In this document: one piece after another, positions 4,998-13,706 of the stretch
Layout: each line of letters opens with the position of its first letter
Position numbering within the stretch: position 1 is the first letter of the stretch
DNA from: Archaeoglobaceae archaeon
GTDB lineage: Archaea > Halobacteriota > Archaeoglobi > Archaeoglobales > Archaeoglobaceae
NCBI GenBank assembly: GCA_027064525.1
Contig: JAMOPJ010000052.1
Span: 1-64,000, forward strand
DNA length: 64,000 nucleotides
Reading direction: 5' to 3'
Position numbers and translations under genes: made by a program
Notes under the pieces: model-generated
What the model was told of the DNA's origin: nothing
Database searches by the model: none
The model's input: only the letters and a program-made list of their open reading frames with translations

Positions 4998-5054
4998 TAC
5001 GTTAGTCGTTAAAGATAAAGCTTAAAAACGTTTTGTGTGCTAGGGTGGTCAATT

Positions 5055-6227
5055 ATGAAAGTTTTAATCGTTACAAATTGGTATCCAACGGAGAGAAATC
5101 CTGTAGCTGGTGTTTTTGTTAAGGAATTCGCCGAGGCGGTGTCTAAGTATTGCGATGTCGTAGTTTTGCATCCCGAACCCTCAGAAAATGTAAAAATGTT
5201 TAAAATAAGAAAAACTAGTAATAATTTTAAAGTCATCAAGCTGATGTATAGGGCTATCGGTTCCAGTTCGCTTTCCTATGTTCTCTCGTCGTTTTTGGCG
5301 ATATTGTGGATGGTGAAAAACATCAAGAAATTCGCTCCAGATGTCATTCACGCTCATAACTATTTAGCTGCTGTGTGGGCGATTATCGCTGGAAGAATAT
5401 ACGGGATTCCGGTAATAATAACCGAACACGGACTCCACAAGGAAGGAGATGACTATAAGGATTACCTCCTAAAAAGTGTTAGATTGAAAATCAAAAATTT
5501 CATTGCAAAAATAATATTTAACAGTGCTGATTATCTGATCTTCGTCAGTCGTGCATCGAGAGATCATATATCTCAAACTTTGGGAGTTTTAAAACCAAAT
5601 AGCGTTATCTCCAATGTTCTCAATGAAAACTTTTTAAAGATTAAAAAAATTATAAGTAATAATTATAATAATAAAAAGATCATATTGTTCATAGGAGGTT
5701 TGAATCCACGTAAAGGTGTGAACTATCTTTTAGAGGCTGCTAAGATACTAAAGAGGAGGAGGTCAGATTTCATAATTAAGATCGTTGGATATGGACCATT
5801 TGAAGGGAAATATAGGAAACTGGCCAAAGAGTTAGGCGTAGATGATGTAGTAGAGTTCCTTGGTAGAGTCAACGACAACATTAAAATAGAGCTACTGAAG
5901 AGCTGTGACGTGTTTGTCCTACCATCTCTGTTTGAAAATTTCGGTATAGTTCTAATAGAAGCCATGGCATGCGGAAAACCCGTGGTGACGACCTCGAGCG
6001 GGGGACAAGTCGAATTCGTAAACGATCGTTGCGGTAAAATCGTCCCACCGAAAGATCCCTTGGCACTCGCAAATGCCATAGAGGATGTTCTCGAAAATTT
6101 GGATAGATACTCCAATAAAGAGATATCATATTACGTTAAAAAGATGTTTAATCCAATAACTGTTGGTAAAATGATTTATAAGACATACAAACAAGTTATT
6201 TACTCCTTTAATAATAATAAAAAATAA
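5055..6227 (+). CDS. GT4-type glycosyltransferase (GT-B fold)
   Basis: 390 aa. The start is the ATG at 5055, six bases after a GGGTGG-type ribosome site; the frame is open to a GTG at 5037 but that would bury the ribosome site. N-terminal Rossmann domain begins MKVLIVTNWYPTERNPVAG with the glycine-containing loop of GT4 enzymes. The C-terminal domain has LFIGGLNPRKGVNYLLEAA and the donor-binding E-x7-E segment (LFENFGIVLIEAMACGKPVV). The likely role is retaining transfer of a sugar from a nucleotide sugar to a membrane lipid or glycan. The coding sequence between about 5150 and 5700 is AT-rich relative to neighbours, which may mark horizontal transfer of glycan genes. Specificity cannot be inferred. 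Confidence 0.9.
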   Translation: MKVLIVTNWYPTERNPVAGVFVKEFAEAVSKYCDVVVLHPEPSENVKMFKIRKTSNNFKVIKLMYRAIGSSSLSYVLSSFLAILWMVKNIKKFAPDVIHAHNYLAAVWAIIAGRIYGIPVIITEHGLHKEGDDYKDYLLKSVRLKIKNFIAKIIFNSADYLIFVSRASRDHISQTLGVLKPNSVISNVLNENFLKIKKIISNNYNNKKIILFIGGLNPRKGVNYLLEAAKILKRRRSDFIIKIVGYGPFEGKYRKLAKELGVDDVVEFLGRVNDNIKIELLKSCDVFVLPSLFENFGIVLIEAMACGKPVVTTSSGGQVEFVNDRCGKIVPPKDPLALANAIEDVLENLDRYSNKEISYYVKKMFNPITVGKMIYKTYKQVIYSFNNNKK

Positions 6228-6277
6228 AATATTTAGACCAAAAATTTTTTATGCTCATCATTACAACTATTATCAGT

Positions 6278-9200
6278 ATGAGGTGGAGTAGGTCATTTGG
6301 ATTATTATTAATGATAATAATGCTCATCAGTATCACTTGGGTATCACTGGCGTCGGCATCCGATGAGAGCATCAGCGTCGCTGGTCATTGGCCGTTCGGA
6401 CCAATGTGGAGAGTAAAAACGGACGATAAATACATCTACGTTGCTGCGGGAGCAGAGATAAGGGTGTATAAGCAACCTCATTTGGATCCCAATCTAATCC
6501 CAGAAAAGCCAAAGGTGTTTACATACGAACCATACAGCAAGGTCTATGCTGGAACGAGAATAACGAGTTTTGAGATCAGTGGAGACTATCTATACGTAGT
6601 TACAGAAGATAGGTTCGAGATCTTCGACATAAGCGACTTGAAGAATCCAGTTAAGGTTGCTGAAATCTATCCGCCCAGCGAGATATACATAGGTCCGCTT
6701 GGAGGATTGGCTATTGTGAACGACAGCGTTGCCTATATTGGTGATTACCGTTACGGTGGCATCTGGATAGTCGACATTAAGGACAAGTATCATCCCAAGA
6801 CCATAGGAACGATAAAAGGTCCGAGTGGCGTTCTGGCAATACTCGGAAAATACATGTATGCCACCAGGGACAAGACCATCTGGATATACGACATCTCCAA
6901 TCCAACCTCACCGGTCAAGGTAAATAAAATAACGCTCAAGTTTTCAAACTACATCAGCGGATTTGCGAGATACGGTAACTATGCTTATGTAGTCGATTAC
7001 TACACGGGTATAGGGATACTAAACATTTCCAACGTGACCAATCCGGTTATGATCAAAAAGATCACGGGGTTTACAGCAGTTAGAACGAAGGTGGTCGGAA
7101 ATTTACTTTTTGTGGCAACACGTTACGAGGACTTCAGAATATACAACATCTCTGATCCTGAGAATCCTAAATTCATAGCTAAGGCGAGTGGGGGTGTGCC
7201 GGGATACACTGAAGACATAGCGATTTCAGGGAACTATGTATACGTCGTAGCATCGACGTATGGATTGAAGATATTCGGCATATCTGACATTTCAAAGCCG
7301 AAGTATAAGGGTGCTATAAAGTCGAACGATGTCAGAGCGATAGCATACGTCGACGGATACTTGGTGTCCGGTGGAGACTACGGAATATGGGTCGTCGACA
7401 TATCCAACCCGGCACAGCCGAAGGAAGTAACATATCTCGACAACTGCGGGAGAGTTACGGCAATCAAGAAGATAGATCACTACCTGTATTTGGAGGGATC
7501 GTGGGGTTATGCTATCGTAATAGTGGACATCTCAGATATAACACATCCAAAGATAGTGAAGAAGATAGTGTCCGTAGGTCCTAACGAGCCGAGGGTTGGA
7601 TACGGAGGATATTACGACGGCAAGTATTGGTATACTATATCAGCCGATTGGAAGAATTTCGTCGTCGTTAACGTCTCTGATCCCTTAAATCCGAAGATAG
7701 TTGGCAGAGCATCGATTGGTGGTAGAGCGGCGGGTAAAATAGACAATTACGTCTTGCTATCCACAAGTAAAGGTGTGTATGTGATAAACGTCTCAGATCC
7801 CACCAATCCGATTGTGGAAGCTCATCCCATAACATCTGGTAAGATAGCGTCGGTGCTGGGAACCCTCGTTGCGATAGACAAGGGATCGTATCTGGAACTC
7901 TACGACTTCTCAAATCCATTGAGGCCTGCAAATCTTTCCAAGATATCTACAGGTGGTAGCCCGGGTAGTGTAAGGATGCTCGGGAACTACTTGGTGGCGC
8001 ACTTTAACACCCTAAAACTATACGACATAAGCGATCCGAAACATCCGAAGAAGGTCTTGGAGTTCAACTTCCACAAGAACCCGTTGTTCTACTCGGCATA
8101 CACGGGGAGAGGTGGCATAATTCCATATGAAGACAACAAGCTGATAGTCGCCAAGCAATATGAGGGAATCTACATACTGCAACTATCGACTACACCCGAC
8201 ACGATTCCTCCTGTTATAAGCGATGTCAAAGTAATGAACATTACAGCTACCACAGTCGTGATAACTTGGAAGACCGATGAGTTATCGGATAGCTTGGTCA
8301 AATACGGATTGAAACCCGGAAGCTACGACCATCAGATATATGACAAGACCTTGACTGTAAATCACAGAATGAAGCTCTCAAACCTAAGTCCAAATACCAC
8401 ATATTACTTCGTCGTAGGTTCGAAGGATCAGAGCGGAAATTACAACGAAAGCTCAGAGCACTCGTTCACGACATCGAGCGGTAAGATAGACACGACTTCA
8501 CCAACTACAACATACAAGATAACACCCGAGCCGAACGAGAGGGGATGGATAAACGTAACGCCAGTAACGGTGACCTTCTTTCGCAGTGACGACAGTGGGA
8601 TTGCTTACACTAACTATTCTACTGATTCGAAGAATTGGAAGAAGGTAGAAGGCGAGAATCCGTTCAACGTTACGCTACACAATACAACGACGATATGGTT
8701 CTACTCCGTCGATGTGAACGGAAACGTGGAGCCTGTAAAGAGCGTAACCGTAAAGATAGACTGCAACCCACCTGAGATCTACGATATCAGCGTATATACT
8801 TGCAAGGATTCGGTTAAAATATCTTGGAAGACCAACGAAACTACGGTCGGTATGGTAAGGTATGGTAGTAAATCTGGAGATTACGATCATGAAGTTTCCG
8901 ACCCGACGTTTGCCAAGCACCACACGGTGAGATTAACGAATCTAACTATGGGAACATATTACTTCGTAATCGTGAGCATAGACGAAGCTGGAAACTCTGC
9001 TCAAAGCGAGGAGATGAAATTCACTATAGGAAATTCATCCAGCAGAAATTCATCCACCGTCGATCTTGAGTTCAGCCCGAAGGTCAGGGTGCTCAAGGTC
9101 GATTGGGTTAAGGAGATAACCCTGAAGCTTAACAAAGCACCCAACGGTCTATCTGGCTATAACATCACGGTAAGTGTTGAGAATTCATCGATAGCTGAAA

Positions 9201-9682
9201 TAGAATCGGTAGAGTTTCCAGATTGGGCAACTCTACACGACAACTCTACTCTTCCTTCAAGCACAGTTTGGATTAAAGCAGTAGACTTGAACGACAGCGT
9301 TAGACCTAACGCCAAGAACGTTGAAGTTGTAACTGTAAAGATCAGAGGTAAGGCCGCTGGGAGAACGAAGATAACAATAACGACGTATAGAATAGACGAT
9401 GACAACGGAAATCCGATCAGCCTGAACACCACCGAGTGCAAGGTTATGGTAGTTCCACTTCCACCCTTGCCAAAGTGCAACGATCCACCGACAGATCCTA
9501 ATGGAGATGGTGTTTACGAGGATCTTAATGGAAACATGAAGATCGACTTCGACGATGTTGTCAAATACTTCAAGTTCATGTATTGGATAGAGAAGAACTA
9601 TCCGGCTAAGTTCATTGATATAAACAAGAACGGCAGGATAGACTTCGACGACATAGTGAAGTTGTTCAAGGAGGTGAGTTAA
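6278..9682 (+). CDS. Secreted LVIVD-propeller / fibronectin III / cohesin / dockerin protein
   Basis: 1134 aa from the ATG at 6278, which gives a normal signal peptide (MRWSRS followed by a hydrophobic core ending near SLASA); an in-frame ATG at 6251 is possible. About twelve LVIVD-type repeats of the form IxDISDxxNPxxV lie at residues ~112-595 and should form one or two beta-propellers. Then come a fibronectin III-like domain (~643-733), an Ig-like domain (~737-828), a second fibronectin III-like domain (~829-918), a cohesin domain (~927-1061) and a C-terminal dockerin with two calcium-binding loops (DPNGDGVYEDLNGN and DINKNGRIDFDD). Family knowledge: dockerins bind cohesins tightly, so the protein could bind its neighbour's cohesin or self-assemble at the cell surface. 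A. fulgidus has an adjacent pair of cohesin-bearing proteins. The next gene follows after one base with a GGAGGTGA ribosome site, so they form an operon. Confidence 0.9.
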   Translation: MRWSRSFGLLLMIIMLISITWVSLASASDESISVAGHWPFGPMWRVKTDDKYIYVAAGAEIRVYKQPHLDPNLIPEKPKVFTYEPYSKVYAGTRITSFEISGDYLYVVTEDRFEIFDISDLKNPVKVAEIYPPSEIYIGPLGGLAIVNDSVAYIGDYRYGGIWIVDIKDKYHPKTIGTIKGPSGVLAILGKYMYATRDKTIWIYDISNPTSPVKVNKITLKFSNYISGFARYGNYAYVVDYYTGIGILNISNVTNPVMIKKITGFTAVRTKVVGNLLFVATRYEDFRIYNISDPENPKFIAKASGGVPGYTEDIAISGNYVYVVASTYGLKIFGISDISKPKYKGAIKSNDVRAIAYVDGYLVSGGDYGIWVVDISNPAQPKEVTYLDNCGRVTAIKKIDHYLYLEGSWGYAIVIVDISDITHPKIVKKIVSVGPNEPRVGYGGYYDGKYWYTISADWKNFVVVNVSDPLNPKIVGRASIGGRAAGKIDNYVLLSTSKGVYVINVSDPTNPIVEAHPITSGKIASVLGTLVAIDKGSYLELYDFSNPLRPANLSKISTGGSPGSVRMLGNYLVAHFNTLKLYDISDPKHPKKVLEFNFHKNPLFYSAYTGRGGIIPYEDNKLIVAKQYEGIYILQLSTTPDTIPPVISDVKVMNITATTVVITWKTDELSDSLVKYGLKPGSYDHQIYDKTLTVNHRMKLSNLSPNTTYYFVVGSKDQSGNYNESSEHSFTTSSGKIDTTSPTTTYKITPEPNERGWINVTPVTVTFFRSDDSGIAYTNYSTDSKNWKKVEGENPFNVTLHNTTTIWFYSVDVNGNVEPVKSVTVKIDCNPPEIYDISVYTCKDSVKISWKTNETTVGMVRYGSKSGDYDHEVSDPTFAKHHTVRLTNLTMGTYYFVIVSIDEAGNSAQSEEMKFTIGNSSSRNSSTVDLEFSPKVRVLKVDWVKEITLKLNKAPNGLSGYNITVSVENSSIAEIESVEFPDWATLHDNSTLPSSTVWIKAVDLNDSVRPNAKNVEVVTVKIRGKAAGRTKITITTYRIDDDNGNPISLNTTECKVMVVPLPPLPKCNDPPTDPNGDGVYEDLNGNMKIDFDDVVKYFKFMYWIEKNYPAKFIDINKNGRIDFDDIVKLFKEVS
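9137..9294 (+). repeat. 158-bp perfect direct repeat, copy 1 (inside cohesin domain)
   Basis: These 158 bases are identical, base for base, to 9807-9964, offset by 670. Both copies encode the same part of a cohesin domain in the same reading frame (from APNGLSGYNITV to KAVDLNE/D). Similarity drops abruptly outside the repeat, although the flanking protein sequence remains homologous. Confidence 0.97.
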
Positions 9683-9683
9683 A

Positions 9684-10763
9684 ATGCTGAGAACTTTTAT
9701 CTTAATTTTTATTCTGATTACATTGGTTCAACCTGTTTTGGCAGATTTGGTCGTCGAAAGCAGGACTGTTCAATCTGACACATTTATAAATATAACACTA
9801 ACCGAGGCACCCAACGGTCTATCTGGCTATAACATCACGGTAAGTGTTGAGAATTCATCGATAGCTGAAATAGAATCGGTAGAGTTTCCAGATTGGGCAA
9901 CTCTACACGACAACTCTACTCTTCCTTCAAGCACAGTTTGGATTAAAGCAGTAGACTTGAACGAATGCATTCAGCAGAATGCGACGGATATTACTTTAGC
10001 GACTCTAAAGATCAAAGTGAAGGGCACGGGTATCACTCACATAAATGTGACCTCTGTTAGAATGGACGATGACAACGGATATCCCATGTATCCGAGGATA
10101 TTCAATGGGACTATAGAAGTGCAGCAGACTACTCAGACCTCAACCTCGAGTGGATCTTCAGTTGCTACTCCAGCTGGAGCATGGGTAACTTCAGGCGGTG
10201 GTGGCGGTGGAGGTGGCGGAGGATCATCTATCTCTACAACTTCAGATGAAAACATTGGCTCCGAAGAAATCAAGATAACAGCTCCAACCGAAGTTAAGGC
10301 GAACTCCTATTTTACCCTCTATATCGAAGTTCCATACAACGCAACGATTAGGATTAAACTCCCAGAAGGTTGGACAGCAACCAAAACTGAAATTACAGTA
10401 AATAATTCCAACGTCAGCACATTTATAGGAGTTCCAAGAGATGCGGAGGGTAATTACACCATAACCATCGAAGTGATATCTGGAGACAGAGTAAAAATCA
10501 GAAATGTCACAATAAAGGTTATAAAGGTAAGTAGCATTTCAATGCCCTTCTTCTACACACATACAACTTCGAAATCCACTCCAACCTCGAAAATTACGCC
10601 CGAGCTAAAGCCAACAGAAGAGCCGACACCGACGCCAACAACCATAAGCTTTACTTCTAAAGTTCTCTCAAAGGTTTTTGAGGTAATAATTACCTATATA
10701 CAGCTATTAATAAAAACTCTGCTGAGAATACTAACACCATTTACGAAAATAATATACGTTTAG
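9684..10763 (+). CDS. Secreted cohesin-domain protein with polyglycine linker and hydrophobic C-terminus
   Basis: 359 aa, preceded by a strong GGAGGTGA ribosome site. Signal peptide at residues 1-21 (ends VLADLVV); cohesin domain at ~22-150; a Ser/Thr/Gly linker with ten consecutive glycines (bases 10194-10223, all four glycine codons used in a mixture); an Ig-like beta domain at ~192-285; a Thr/Pro-rich spacer at ~300-325 (EEPTPTPTT); and a hydrophobic, basic C-terminal segment that may anchor it in the membrane. There is no dockerin. The inferred role is a membrane-attached receptor whose cohesin captures the dockerin of the upstream protein, a two-part surface scaffold. Its stop overlaps the convergent oxidoreductase gene by four bases. 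A. fulgidus carries a comparable cohesin gene pair, so this is probably a conserved feature of the lineage. Confidence 0.88.
   Translation: MLRTFILIFILITLVQPVLADLVVESRTVQSDTFINITLTEAPNGLSGYNITVSVENSSIAEIESVEFPDWATLHDNSTLPSSTVWIKAVDLNECIQQNATDITLATLKIKVKGTGITHINVTSVRMDDDNGYPMYPRIFNGTIEVQQTTQTSTSSGSSVATPAGAWVTSGGGGGGGGGGSSISTTSDENIGSEEIKITAPTEVKANSYFTLYIEVPYNATIRIKLPEGWTATKTEITVNNSNVSTFIGVPRDAEGNYTITIEVISGDRVKIRNVTIKVIKVSSISMPFFYTHTTSKSTPTSKITPELKPTEEPTPTPTTISFTSKVLSKVFEVIITYIQLLIKTLLRILTPFTKIIYV
9807..9964 (+). repeat. 158-bp perfect direct repeat, copy 2 (inside cohesin domain)
   Basis: Identical to 9137-9294 over all 158 bases. The absence of even synonymous differences, next to flanks that have diverged clearly, indicates recent gene conversion or a recent partial duplication. 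Confidence 0.97.
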
Positions 10764-11731
10764 TGTTTTAACATCACCTCTTTTAACTTTATTACGGTTT
10801 CCCCCTTCCAGGAATTTATGGCTGATATTGCAACAGAGAGGACGTAAAGCCCATCCTCTCCCGACGGTTTCGGTTCTTCGTCATACATGACATATCTCAG
10901 AAATGTTTCAAGCTCGTTTTTAAGCGGTTCTCTCTTTTCGACATCCACACTGTAAACGTCCCCGTTCTTGCAGATCGTAAGGGTTTTGTCTATGTAATCT
11001 ATTGTAGCGACGCCCCTTGTTCCAACAACAGTAAGCGTTCTTATCTTTCTCGAAGTTAGCCAGTTGGTTTCTATAATACCCACCCTGCTATTTGTAAATC
11101 TGAGAACTATAGACGCATAGTCTTCGAAGCTGTGAGAGCACATCCCACTCCTGCCAGCTACGGCGTAAACGCTTATTGCTCTGTCATCATAGAGATAAGA
11201 CATAGTGTCTATCTCGTGAACTGCCAAGTCAACTATTACTCCGACATCTCTTACTCTCGGCGAGTATGGCCCCACTCTTTTACCCGACATTGACAGAATG
11301 TCTCCAAGCAATCCTGAGGATATTACCTCTTTAAGCTTTAAAACAGCCGGATTGAACCTTTCGATGTGACCTACCATAATCTTGACTCCTGACTTCTTCG
11401 CAGCTTTAAGTATCTTTTTTGCATTTAATATGTTATCGGCTATCGGTTTTTCTATGAGCATGTCGACACCGTATTCTGCGACATCTATCGCTACGTCCTT
11501 GTGCAGGCTCGTTGGAACCGCTATGCTTACAGCGTCAACTCCAGCGTCGAGCAACTTTAGGTAGTCTGTATATGCTTCAGTGTTATACATTCTTGCCACA
11601 TTCTTCACTACATCCTCCCTGACATCCACAACGCCAACTAGTTTAGCATGAGGAATTTCACTATAAACTCGCGCATGATGTTTTCCCATCTGCCCCACAC
11701 CAATAACGCCAACTCTAACCTTTTTCATCAC
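10760..11731 (-). CDS. Gfo/Idh/MocA family NAD(P)-dependent sugar dehydrogenase
   Basis: 323 aa. The N-terminal Rossmann fold has GVIGVGQMGKHHARVY (GxGxxG) and the family's EKPIA motif near residue 96, followed by GHIERFNPAV at the start of the alpha/beta substrate domain. It resembles the WlbA-like branch that oxidises the 3-hydroxyl of UDP-N-acetylhexosamine derivatives; this assignment is inferred from the motif pattern plus the nearby hexapeptide acyltransferase (13071), a combination typical of acetamido-sugar synthesis for archaeal N-glycans. ATG at 11731, with a second ATG next to it at 11728. A TATA-like ATATATA lies about 45-50 bases upstream. The 3' end overlaps the cohesin gene by four bases. 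Confidence 0.85.
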   Translation of the reverse strand: MMKKVRVGVIGVGQMGKHHARVYSEIPHAKLVGVVDVREDVVKNVARMYNTEAYTDYLKLLDAGVDAVSIAVPTSLHKDVAIDVAEYGVDMLIEKPIADNILNAKKILKAAKKSGVKIMVGHIERFNPAVLKLKEVISSGLLGDILSMSGKRVGPYSPRVRDVGVIVDLAVHEIDTMSYLYDDRAISVYAVAGRSGMCSHSFEDYASIVLRFTNSRVGIIETNWLTSRKIRTLTVVGTRGVATIDYIDKTLTICKNGDVYSVDVEKREPLKNELETFLRYVMYDEEPKPSGEDGLYVLSVAISAINSWKGETVIKLKEVMLKH

Positions 11732-11953
11732 TCACACCTATCAACTCGCTATATTTTGATTAAAGCTGTGAAGTATATATCCTTTTCTATTTTTTTCATA
11801 TTCTCATTACCTTATTATTATAATGCTCCTTATCACAATAATATTTTGTATCATTAACATTATCATCATAAATTTAAGGATACTTTGAATGGTGAATGGT
11901 GATCGAACATGAATTCAAAAATTTTAAAAAGATCGTAATAGATAGAACAAACT

Positions 11954-13048
11954 ATGAAGTATTTAATTTCATTTGGATTATTCCTACTTCTCATTCATGT
12001 TGCAAGTGCTCAGATCATCGTTGTTCCAGACGACTACCAAAAGATCCAGTGGGCTATAGACAACGCTTCCGTTGATGATATGATAGTTGTTAAGGATGGA
12101 ATTTACATTGAAAACGTTGTGATAGATAAGAGCATAACTCTGATGTCCGAAAGCGGACCCAACAACTGTAAAATCGGCGCTGCAGATTCTGACCTTCCAG
12201 TGATAAAGATAGTGGCGGACAACGCAAAAGTTACCGGATTCTGCATCGAAGGTCAAAATTGCGGGATATACATATACGATTCAGATATCTGTGTCGTGCA
12301 TGATATGAAGTTCGTATCCAACAAATACAGTGTGAGAATAAAGAACTCAGATGACTGTGAGGTCTACGACTGCGTTTTCGATTCCAACGAGTATGGAATC
12401 ATTCTTAACTCATCTGAGGAATGTTTGATAATGGACAACAACTTTATAGGAAACGACTTCGCAGTAGTTCTTAACACATCGGATGATAACGAAATTTCCG
12501 AAAACTACTTCGAGAGCAACACATACGGCATATTCTGTGAGAATTCAAACTCGAACTACATAGAGAGCAACGAATTTGTCAAAGATGAGAAAGCGGTTGT
12601 TTTAAAATCCTCAAACGAACTCATGATCGACGATAACTCCTTCACAGACTGTGTTTGTTCATTATCACTAATGGATTCGTTCGATAACGAGATTTACCTA
12701 AACGACTTCGTAAGGAGTTCTGTCAAAAGTCAGAATTCGGTCAATTACTGGAACTCTACGATTTTGTATCTCTACGAATACAATGGTCATGAATATGTTA
12801 GCTACATCGGCAACTACTGGGACGATTATACTGGTGTAGATTCCAACAACGATGGAATAGGAGAACAGTCATACATAATTGATACGGACAACTTGGATTA
12901 CTATCCTTTAATCTCGTCAAAAGATTATTATGCATTGAAGTTTGAGGTCATAGCGACACCAACACCAGTGTTCATTCCTGAATTCCCGGTAACCGTGCTG
13001 CCGTTGGCCATTTGCATAATGCTGTTAATCGCTCGAAGACTATTTTAA
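11954..13048 (+). CDS. Secreted right-handed beta-helix (NosD-like) protein with IPEFP C-terminal anchor
   Basis: 364 aa. Signal peptide (MKYLISFGLFLLLIHVASA), then a pectate-lyase-like beta-helix of short repeats around Asn/Asp-rich turns (ICVVHDMKFVSN, CEVYDCVFDSN, CLIMDNNFIGN and similar) at residues ~25-270, resembling the NosD/copper-binding beta-helix family. It ends with a Thr/Pro stretch, IPEFP, a hydrophobic helix and a basic tail (ARRLF). That tripartite tail resembles archaeal C-terminal surface-sorting signals of the PEF-CTERM kind, although no sortase is seen here. Acidic and Asn-rich composition suggests a heavily glycosylated surface protein. A TATA-like TTTTAAAA about 28 bases before the ATG suggests a leaderless transcript. 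The ligand is unknown. Confidence 0.82.
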   Translation: MKYLISFGLFLLLIHVASAQIIVVPDDYQKIQWAIDNASVDDMIVVKDGIYIENVVIDKSITLMSESGPNNCKIGAADSDLPVIKIVADNAKVTGFCIEGQNCGIYIYDSDICVVHDMKFVSNKYSVRIKNSDDCEVYDCVFDSNEYGIILNSSEECLIMDNNFIGNDFAVVLNTSDDNEISENYFESNTYGIFCENSNSNYIESNEFVKDEKAVVLKSSNELMIDDNSFTDCVCSLSLMDSFDNEIYLNDFVRSSVKSQNSVNYWNSTILYLYEYNGHEYVSYIGNYWDDYTGVDSNNDGIGEQSYIIDTDNLDYYPLISSKDYYALKFEVIATPTPVFIPEFPVTVLPLAICIMLLIARRLF

Positions 13049-13070
13049 CGATTAAACATATTTTTCTAGT

Positions 13071-13706
13071 ATGATAGACGAAACGGTCAAAATCTTCGGA
13101 AACACGAAGATCGGTAGAAACGCCGTAGTGATGCAAAACGTGATAATAGGTCACCCAACCACAGAGATCATTAAAAAACCGAACTGGCATGAGCTCGATT
13201 TTGAAGGTGCAAAGATAGGTGATAATGCTATAGTTAGGTCAAACACCGTGATATACTGCGATGTCGAAATAGGCGACAACTTCGTCACGGGGCACAATGT
13301 TGTTATAAGGGAAAAGACGAAGATCGGAAATAACGTCTTGATTGGGACGAACACGGTTATTGAGGGTGAGACTGTGATAGGTAACAACGTCAGCATTCAG
13401 TCTAACGTTTATATTCCAAGAAAGACCATCATAGAAGATCACGTATTCATAGGCCCAAATGCGGTTTTAACGAATGACAAATATCCCGTTAGGAAGGAAT
13501 ACGAACTTAGAGGACCAATAATAAGAAAGGGTGCGACGATAGGTGCAAATTCGATCATCCTTCCGGCAGTTGAGATCGGCGAGGGGGCGTTCGTCGCTGC
13601 TGGTGCTCTGGTTACAAAGGACGTTCCGCCGTGGAAGCTTGCAATAGGTGTGCCCGCGAGGATTGTAGATCTACCAGATTCACTTAGGGTTTTGAACAGA
13701 CTTTGA
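13071..13706 (+). CDS. Hexapeptide-repeat (LbH) acyltransferase, likely sugar N- or O-acetyltransferase
   Basis: 211 aa. Starts with IDETVKIFGNTKIGRNAVV, followed by many [LIV]-G-x4 hexapeptides (VEIGDNFVTGHNVVI, TKIGNNVLIGTNTVI and so on) forming a left-handed beta-helix across almost its whole length, with an extended loop (NDKYPVRKEYELRGP) in the usual acceptor-site position and a C-terminal helix after GVPARIVDLP. Family members use acetyl-CoA to acetylate an amino or hydroxyl group on nucleotide sugars, as trimers. With the Gfo/Idh/MocA gene nearby it would fit synthesis of an acetamido sugar such as a UDP-diacetamido derivative, but no aminotransferase is present between them, so the pathway is incomplete here. 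Confidence 0.87.
   Translation: MIDETVKIFGNTKIGRNAVVMQNVIIGHPTTEIIKKPNWHELDFEGAKIGDNAIVRSNTVIYCDVEIGDNFVTGHNVVIREKTKIGNNVLIGTNTVIEGETVIGNNVSIQSNVYIPRKTIIEDHVFIGPNAVLTNDKYPVRKEYELRGPIIRKGATIGANSIILPAVEIGEGAFVAAGALVTKDVPPWKLAIGVPARIVDLPDSLRVLNRL

Follow-up and report, generated by a model that had tools for sequence, protein, structure and literature searches.

A stretch of 158 bp is identical, base for base, in two cohesin-like domains encoded by adjacent genes of an Archaeoglobaceae archaeon, while the sequence around it has diverged. Recent segmental gene conversion between diverged paralogous cohesin domains of neighbouring genes very probably explains this tract. The window, that is the whole 64,000-nucleotide stretch of DNA analysed, belongs to one assembly, on which the evidence for this pair is founded. 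The event is of a known kind, a fairly ordinary gene conversion in an interesting place, and offers a clean archaeal case in which one segment was converted between protein domains that lie close together and differ elsewhere. Among the papers searched, none deals with conversion of dockerin-binding cohesins. The features of the locus are listed in Table 1.

Table 1. Features of the two-gene locus, with positions counted from the first letter of the window
Feature	Position	Strand	Basis and remarks
Gene 1, 1143 aa	6251..9682	+	ORF; PF08309 E=3e-38, PF16656 E=1e-20, NF047446 E=1e-13
Cohesin-like domain 1 (gene 1, aa 949-1067)	9095..9451	+	Own-genome profile match E=1.2e-47; fold predicted by AF2 and Foldseek
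Tract copy 1 (aa 963-1014, APNGLSGY...AVDLN plus two bases)	9137..9294	+	Exact match; 52/52 codons identical
Dockerin, gene 1 C-terminus, two EF-hand-like loops	9488..9670	+	Archaeal dockerin profile A4, E=6.5e-30, to be read with the window sequence being a row of the profile
Gene 2, 359 aa	9684..10763	+	ORF; signal peptide and anchor assigned by eye
Cohesin-like domain 2 (gene 2, aa 29-146)	9768..10121	+	Profile match E=7.8e-48
Tract copy 2 (aa 42-93)	9807..9964	+	Exact match
Gene 2 hydrophobic C-terminus (putative membrane anchor)	10675..10760	+	Sequence inspection

Origin of the identical tract

The two copies of the tract, offset by 670 bp, match with 0 mismatches, synonymous positions included, exactly as the earlier note had described. 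Each copy starts at a codon boundary (residue 963 of ORF1 and residue 42 of ORF2) and is read in frame, in equivalent places of two homologous domains. Both domains are full length; their alignment over the whole length needs no more than one gap and has the tract in the same register. The divergence claimed for the sequence outside the repeat is also confirmed, ungapped identity being 33% over the 97 bases upstream and 61% over the 126 bases downstream. The codon alignment of the two domains comprises 354 sites with 91 mismatches. When its matched and mismatched sites were permuted 5000 times, the longest identical run was at most 38 nt, against the 158 observed.

At positions where the residue matches, the same codon is used in 52 of 52 cases inside the tract and in 12 of 21 outside (p=3e-6). 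The path between the two window flanks in the tree amounts to 1.47 substitutions per site, and the tract distance is 0. From 0 differences in 158 sites we calculate an upper 95% bound of about 1.9% on the divergence that has accrued after the event. The earlier note had proposed recent gene conversion or duplication, and the codon counts uphold the first of these. It is highly unlikely that the entire cohesin domain, or the gene end, was recently duplicated and that its ends then diverged fast: a single event predicts uniform synonymous divergence, but 9 of the 21 residue-matched flank codons differ beside a stretch in which none does, with sharp boundaries between them. In its favour, entire C-D modules were copied recently in other clusters (e.g., G345 and G354), and an AU test on the short flanks is compatible with sister flanks, the sister relation of the two window domains standing at p=0.80. 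The flanks of these domains are no nearer each other in the flank tree than to domains of other genera. We did not retain this tree as proof of old paralogy, the flanks being too short and the sister relation being kept by the AU test. As far as the sequences tell, the tract is far younger than the rest of the two domains.

Strong purifying selection on the protein, DNA or RNA could in principle keep the two segments identical with no transfer, and conservation is somewhat higher in the segment than elsewhere in the domain (mean column entropy of 2.04 versus 2.45 bits). Such selection is extremely improbable as the cause, since constraint on the protein leaves synonymous sites free to change. 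Cohesin pairs with 69% protein identity encoded on different contigs have the same codon at 34 of 85 and 30 of 82 positions (0.37-0.40, with a cross-genome median of 0.41), thus about 40% against 52 of 52 in the tract. Codons of these unlinked pairs are at background level, so DNA identity goes with linkage and not with protein constraint.

The genome is in 53 contigs and 158 bp is close to short-read length, as would suit an assembly artefact in which similar but non-identical copies were collapsed to one consensus by bubble removal or the tract was duplicated through misassembly, a caution that the earlier note had fairly raised. We consider this improbable, because neither reading frame nor domain is disrupted, the domains are in register, each copy of the tract is bordered immediately by flanks of its own, and the contig continues for at least 64 kb, the tract pair being the only direct exact repeat of at least 30 bp in the window. 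Moreover, a collapse needs near-identical copies, which would itself imply recent conversion.

The gene conversion that we favour would have started from two genes with old, diverged paralogous cohesin domains lying 670 bp apart in the same orientation. Recombinational repair, presumably of the RadA type, would recently have overwritten about 158 bp of one cohesin with the matching segment of the other. As a replacement and not an insertion, it would have preserved the length and reading frame of both domains. A regression of tract against flank distances gave alike residuals (0.106 versus 0.095) for the two possible donors and favours neither. The K/E residue just before the tract agrees by position in the window and in Methanophagales contig L091; its reading as retained orthology was dropped, as it is a single residue.

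Near-identical cohesin copies in one organism are known from bacterial scaffoldins, where they are tandem domains of one protein, whereas the window cohesins sit one each in two separate adjacent genes. The tuf genes are near-identical along their whole length, in contrast to the window flanks, which are only about 33-61% identical, and the window copies are neighbours. The window pair shares non-reciprocal copying between homologous copies within one genome with the duplicate tuf genes of Salmonella, for which gene conversion was described (PMC5485169).

Cohesin and dockerin domains of the two proteins

The product of gene 1 has a putative signal peptide (assigned by eye) followed by LVIVD beta-propeller repeats, FN3-like domains, an OmpL47-type domain, the cohesin-like domain and the C-terminal dockerin. 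Gene 2, whose ORF begins 1 bp past the stop codon of gene 1, encodes a putative signal peptide, the second cohesin-like domain, a Gly-rich linker, a beta-sandwich, a Pro/Thr-rich stretch and a hydrophobic C-terminus that is likely a membrane anchor. Cellulosome scaffoldins are recognized by several cohesins per protein and by carbohydrate-binding or cellulase partners; gene 1 and gene 2 have one cohesin each. A Pfam search gave no glycoside hydrolase or CBM match in either gene.

The earlier note had named both domains cohesins. The Pfam search does not support the name, as PF00963 has no useful-score match to either window domain, and the cohesin part is missed as well by NCBIfam and by single-sequence or profile searches of the PDB. 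PF00963 matches 4 of the 47 family members, weakly (best 9e-5). Profile-profile comparison yields a match to archaeal PF00963 cohesins with E=4e-5 and a probability of only 69%. The Pfam model was taken as a proxy for the cohesin family and not as its definition, and we relied on the fold. The AlphaFold (AF2) model of the domain was built from four sequences and has modest confidence, with a pLDDT of about 60 overall. Its best PDB matches in Foldseek are cohesins, including 2jh2 (E=6.5e-6) and 2xdh (E=2.8e-5), and model and matches together display the nine-stranded jelly-roll of the cohesin fold. The name cohesin is accepted because this fold search matches solved cohesins; on the predicted fold, we regard the window domains as a divergent cohesin branch of its own.

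Structure 2xdh is that of the Archaeoglobus fulgidus cohesin. The A. fulgidus pair, AF2375/AF2376, consists of adjacent genes with a cohesin and a dockerin in one and a cohesin in the other. By Foldseek (2xdh) the cohesin fold is the same as in the window. The A. fulgidus cohesins are however classical PF00963 domains, whereas those of the window belong to another sequence branch left unscored by Pfam. Genome G035, from the window's family, has a PF00963 cohesin with 2xdh as its best solved relative, which would agree with the Archaeoglobales named in the earlier note.

The C-terminus of gene 1 has the two EF-hand-like calcium loops of a dockerin. PF00404 gives it 19.0 bits, under the cut-off of 22.9, and the A4 profile matches the PDB dockerins 2y3n and 2ccl. 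The genome contains just two cohesins of the window type, and its one clear dockerin of the corresponding type is that of gene 1. A 782-residue secreted protein (L099, positions 6283-8631, on contig C48 of the same genome, G000), composed of metallophosphatase and alkaline-phosphatase-like domains identified by eye, also ends with EF-hand loops, a divergent pair resembling a dockerin. This tail might possibly be a second ligand for the window cohesins.

Around the pair (window positions 5037-13706) lie glycosyltransferase, Gfo/Idh-type oxidoreductase, NosD-like and hexapeptide acetyltransferase-like genes, assigned partly by eye. The oxidoreductase gene next downstream of the pair has no match at E<=1e-50 in four congeners, so this region looks like a variable surface-polysaccharide locus. 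The cohesin pair is also absent from these congeners (G001-G004). An empty site was sought by local synteny but is not demonstrable, the congeners having neither the pair nor a close match to the next gene.

Possible role of the shared segment

Type I complexes of known structure have the dockerin on the 8-3-6-5 sheet of the cohesin. Profile alignment to classical cohesins places the tract over strands 3-6; by analogy, it would cover most of the face at which dockerins usually bind, three strands of four. The conversion would then have given both cohesins nearly the same face. As the genome has a single clear dockerin, the simplest model is that the gene 1 protein docks on the gene 2 anchor. 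Gene 1 would encode a secreted scaffold-like protein whose dockerin binds the membrane-anchored cohesin of gene 2, achieving anchoring, and perhaps also the cohesin of another gene 1 product, allowing chain growth.

Selection may have preserved the conversion, both cohesins needing to bind the single dockerin of gene 1; this proposal, compatible with gene conversion, we find tentative but well worth considering. That the genome has two such cohesins but a single clear family dockerin would agree with it, as would the mapping of the tract to strands 3-6. It is weakened by the second, divergent dockerin-like end on the secreted phosphatase of the same genome and by the lack of homogenisation in most adjacent pairs elsewhere. 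Should the converted segment prove to be the dockerin-binding face, tracts of this kind would hint, from sequence alone, at cohesins with a dockerin in common, for which binding arrays are usually needed.

Cohesin pairs in other archaea

Of 394 genomes sampled in the phylum, 86 have relatives of the cohesin domain; this branch is common there and missed by standard domain models. Alignments A4 and A5 describe a phylum-wide cohesin branch with its own dockerin type, largely overlooked by PF00963 and PF00404. Its presence is patchy, with one of five genomes of the window's genus and four of 51 of the ANME-1 family f7. The viral contigs searched have no relative of the domain. Typically, a long gene with cohesin-dockerin at its end is followed by one that starts with a signal peptide and a cohesin, and this [X-cohesin-dockerin][cohesin-anchor] arrangement is widespread in the phylum. 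The first gene differs in its N-terminal cargo (subtilase, PKD, glycoside-hydrolase-like, molybdopterin oxidoreductase), and the second can have features for surface anchoring, for example a PGF-pre-PGF domain in L157 or a CFI-box C-terminus in L091. The latter, a Methanophagales contig, has the same domain pair and layout as the window but differs in its other domains and anchors. Many dockerin and cohesin proteins are reported for ANME archaea (PMC9012536), in a section that does not report conversion.

The earlier note had proposed, as a check, to see whether cohesin segments cluster within each species. They do so for the window tract, for two ANME-1-family pairs and for some closely linked duplicates, but not for most of the 28 adjacent pairs compared. 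Identical runs longer than 40 nt occur only in the window pair and in the two ANME-1-family (Methanophagales) pairs, G134 (the L091 pair) and G314, with 46 and 51 nt. Most of the 28 have cohesins 25-56% identical in protein and runs of at most 14 nt, and these cohesins are often nearer the same-position cohesin of another species. In G123/G177, identity is 0.94 and 0.89 between genomes versus 0.52-0.53 within them. The Archaeoglobus-type (PF00963) pairs of the window's family likewise cluster by position (31% identity within versus 60-67% between genomes) and are unhomogenised, unlike the window pair. The claim that the cores are kept the same to bind one dockerin therefore fails as a general rule; homogenisation is rare elsewhere, which argues that the same face on both cohesins is not generally required.

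In the two ANME-1-family pairs, codon identity is in excess over the second half of the same segment (21 of 22 versus 38 of 68, p=5e-4, and 20 of 21 versus 44 of 71, p=3e-3), the segment having been picked after the runs were seen. G123/G177 have shorter runs in this segment, 30 and 24 nt, and identical codons are in weak excess or in none (p=0.11 and 0.04). Among the 51 genomes of the ANME-1 family, four of which have the domain family, there is no further adjacent pair. One could imagine recurrent conversion focused on the dockerin-binding face of [X-cohesin-dockerin][cohesin-anchor] operons and leading to anchoring and self-polymerisation, with the window, the two ANME-1-family genomes and, weakly, G123/G177 as independent cases; we deem this unlikely.

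Two further clusters extend the range of arrangements. In G345 (L144, L145), several long cohesin-dockerin proteins are clustered, and their cohesins are 90-97% identical, with an exact run of 240 nt; judged by these identities, the array is the product of recent module copying or conversion. G314 (L132) has a small scaffold-like cluster, in which cohesin-dockerin and cohesin genes adjoin the gene for a protein that combines two cohesins with a dockerin.
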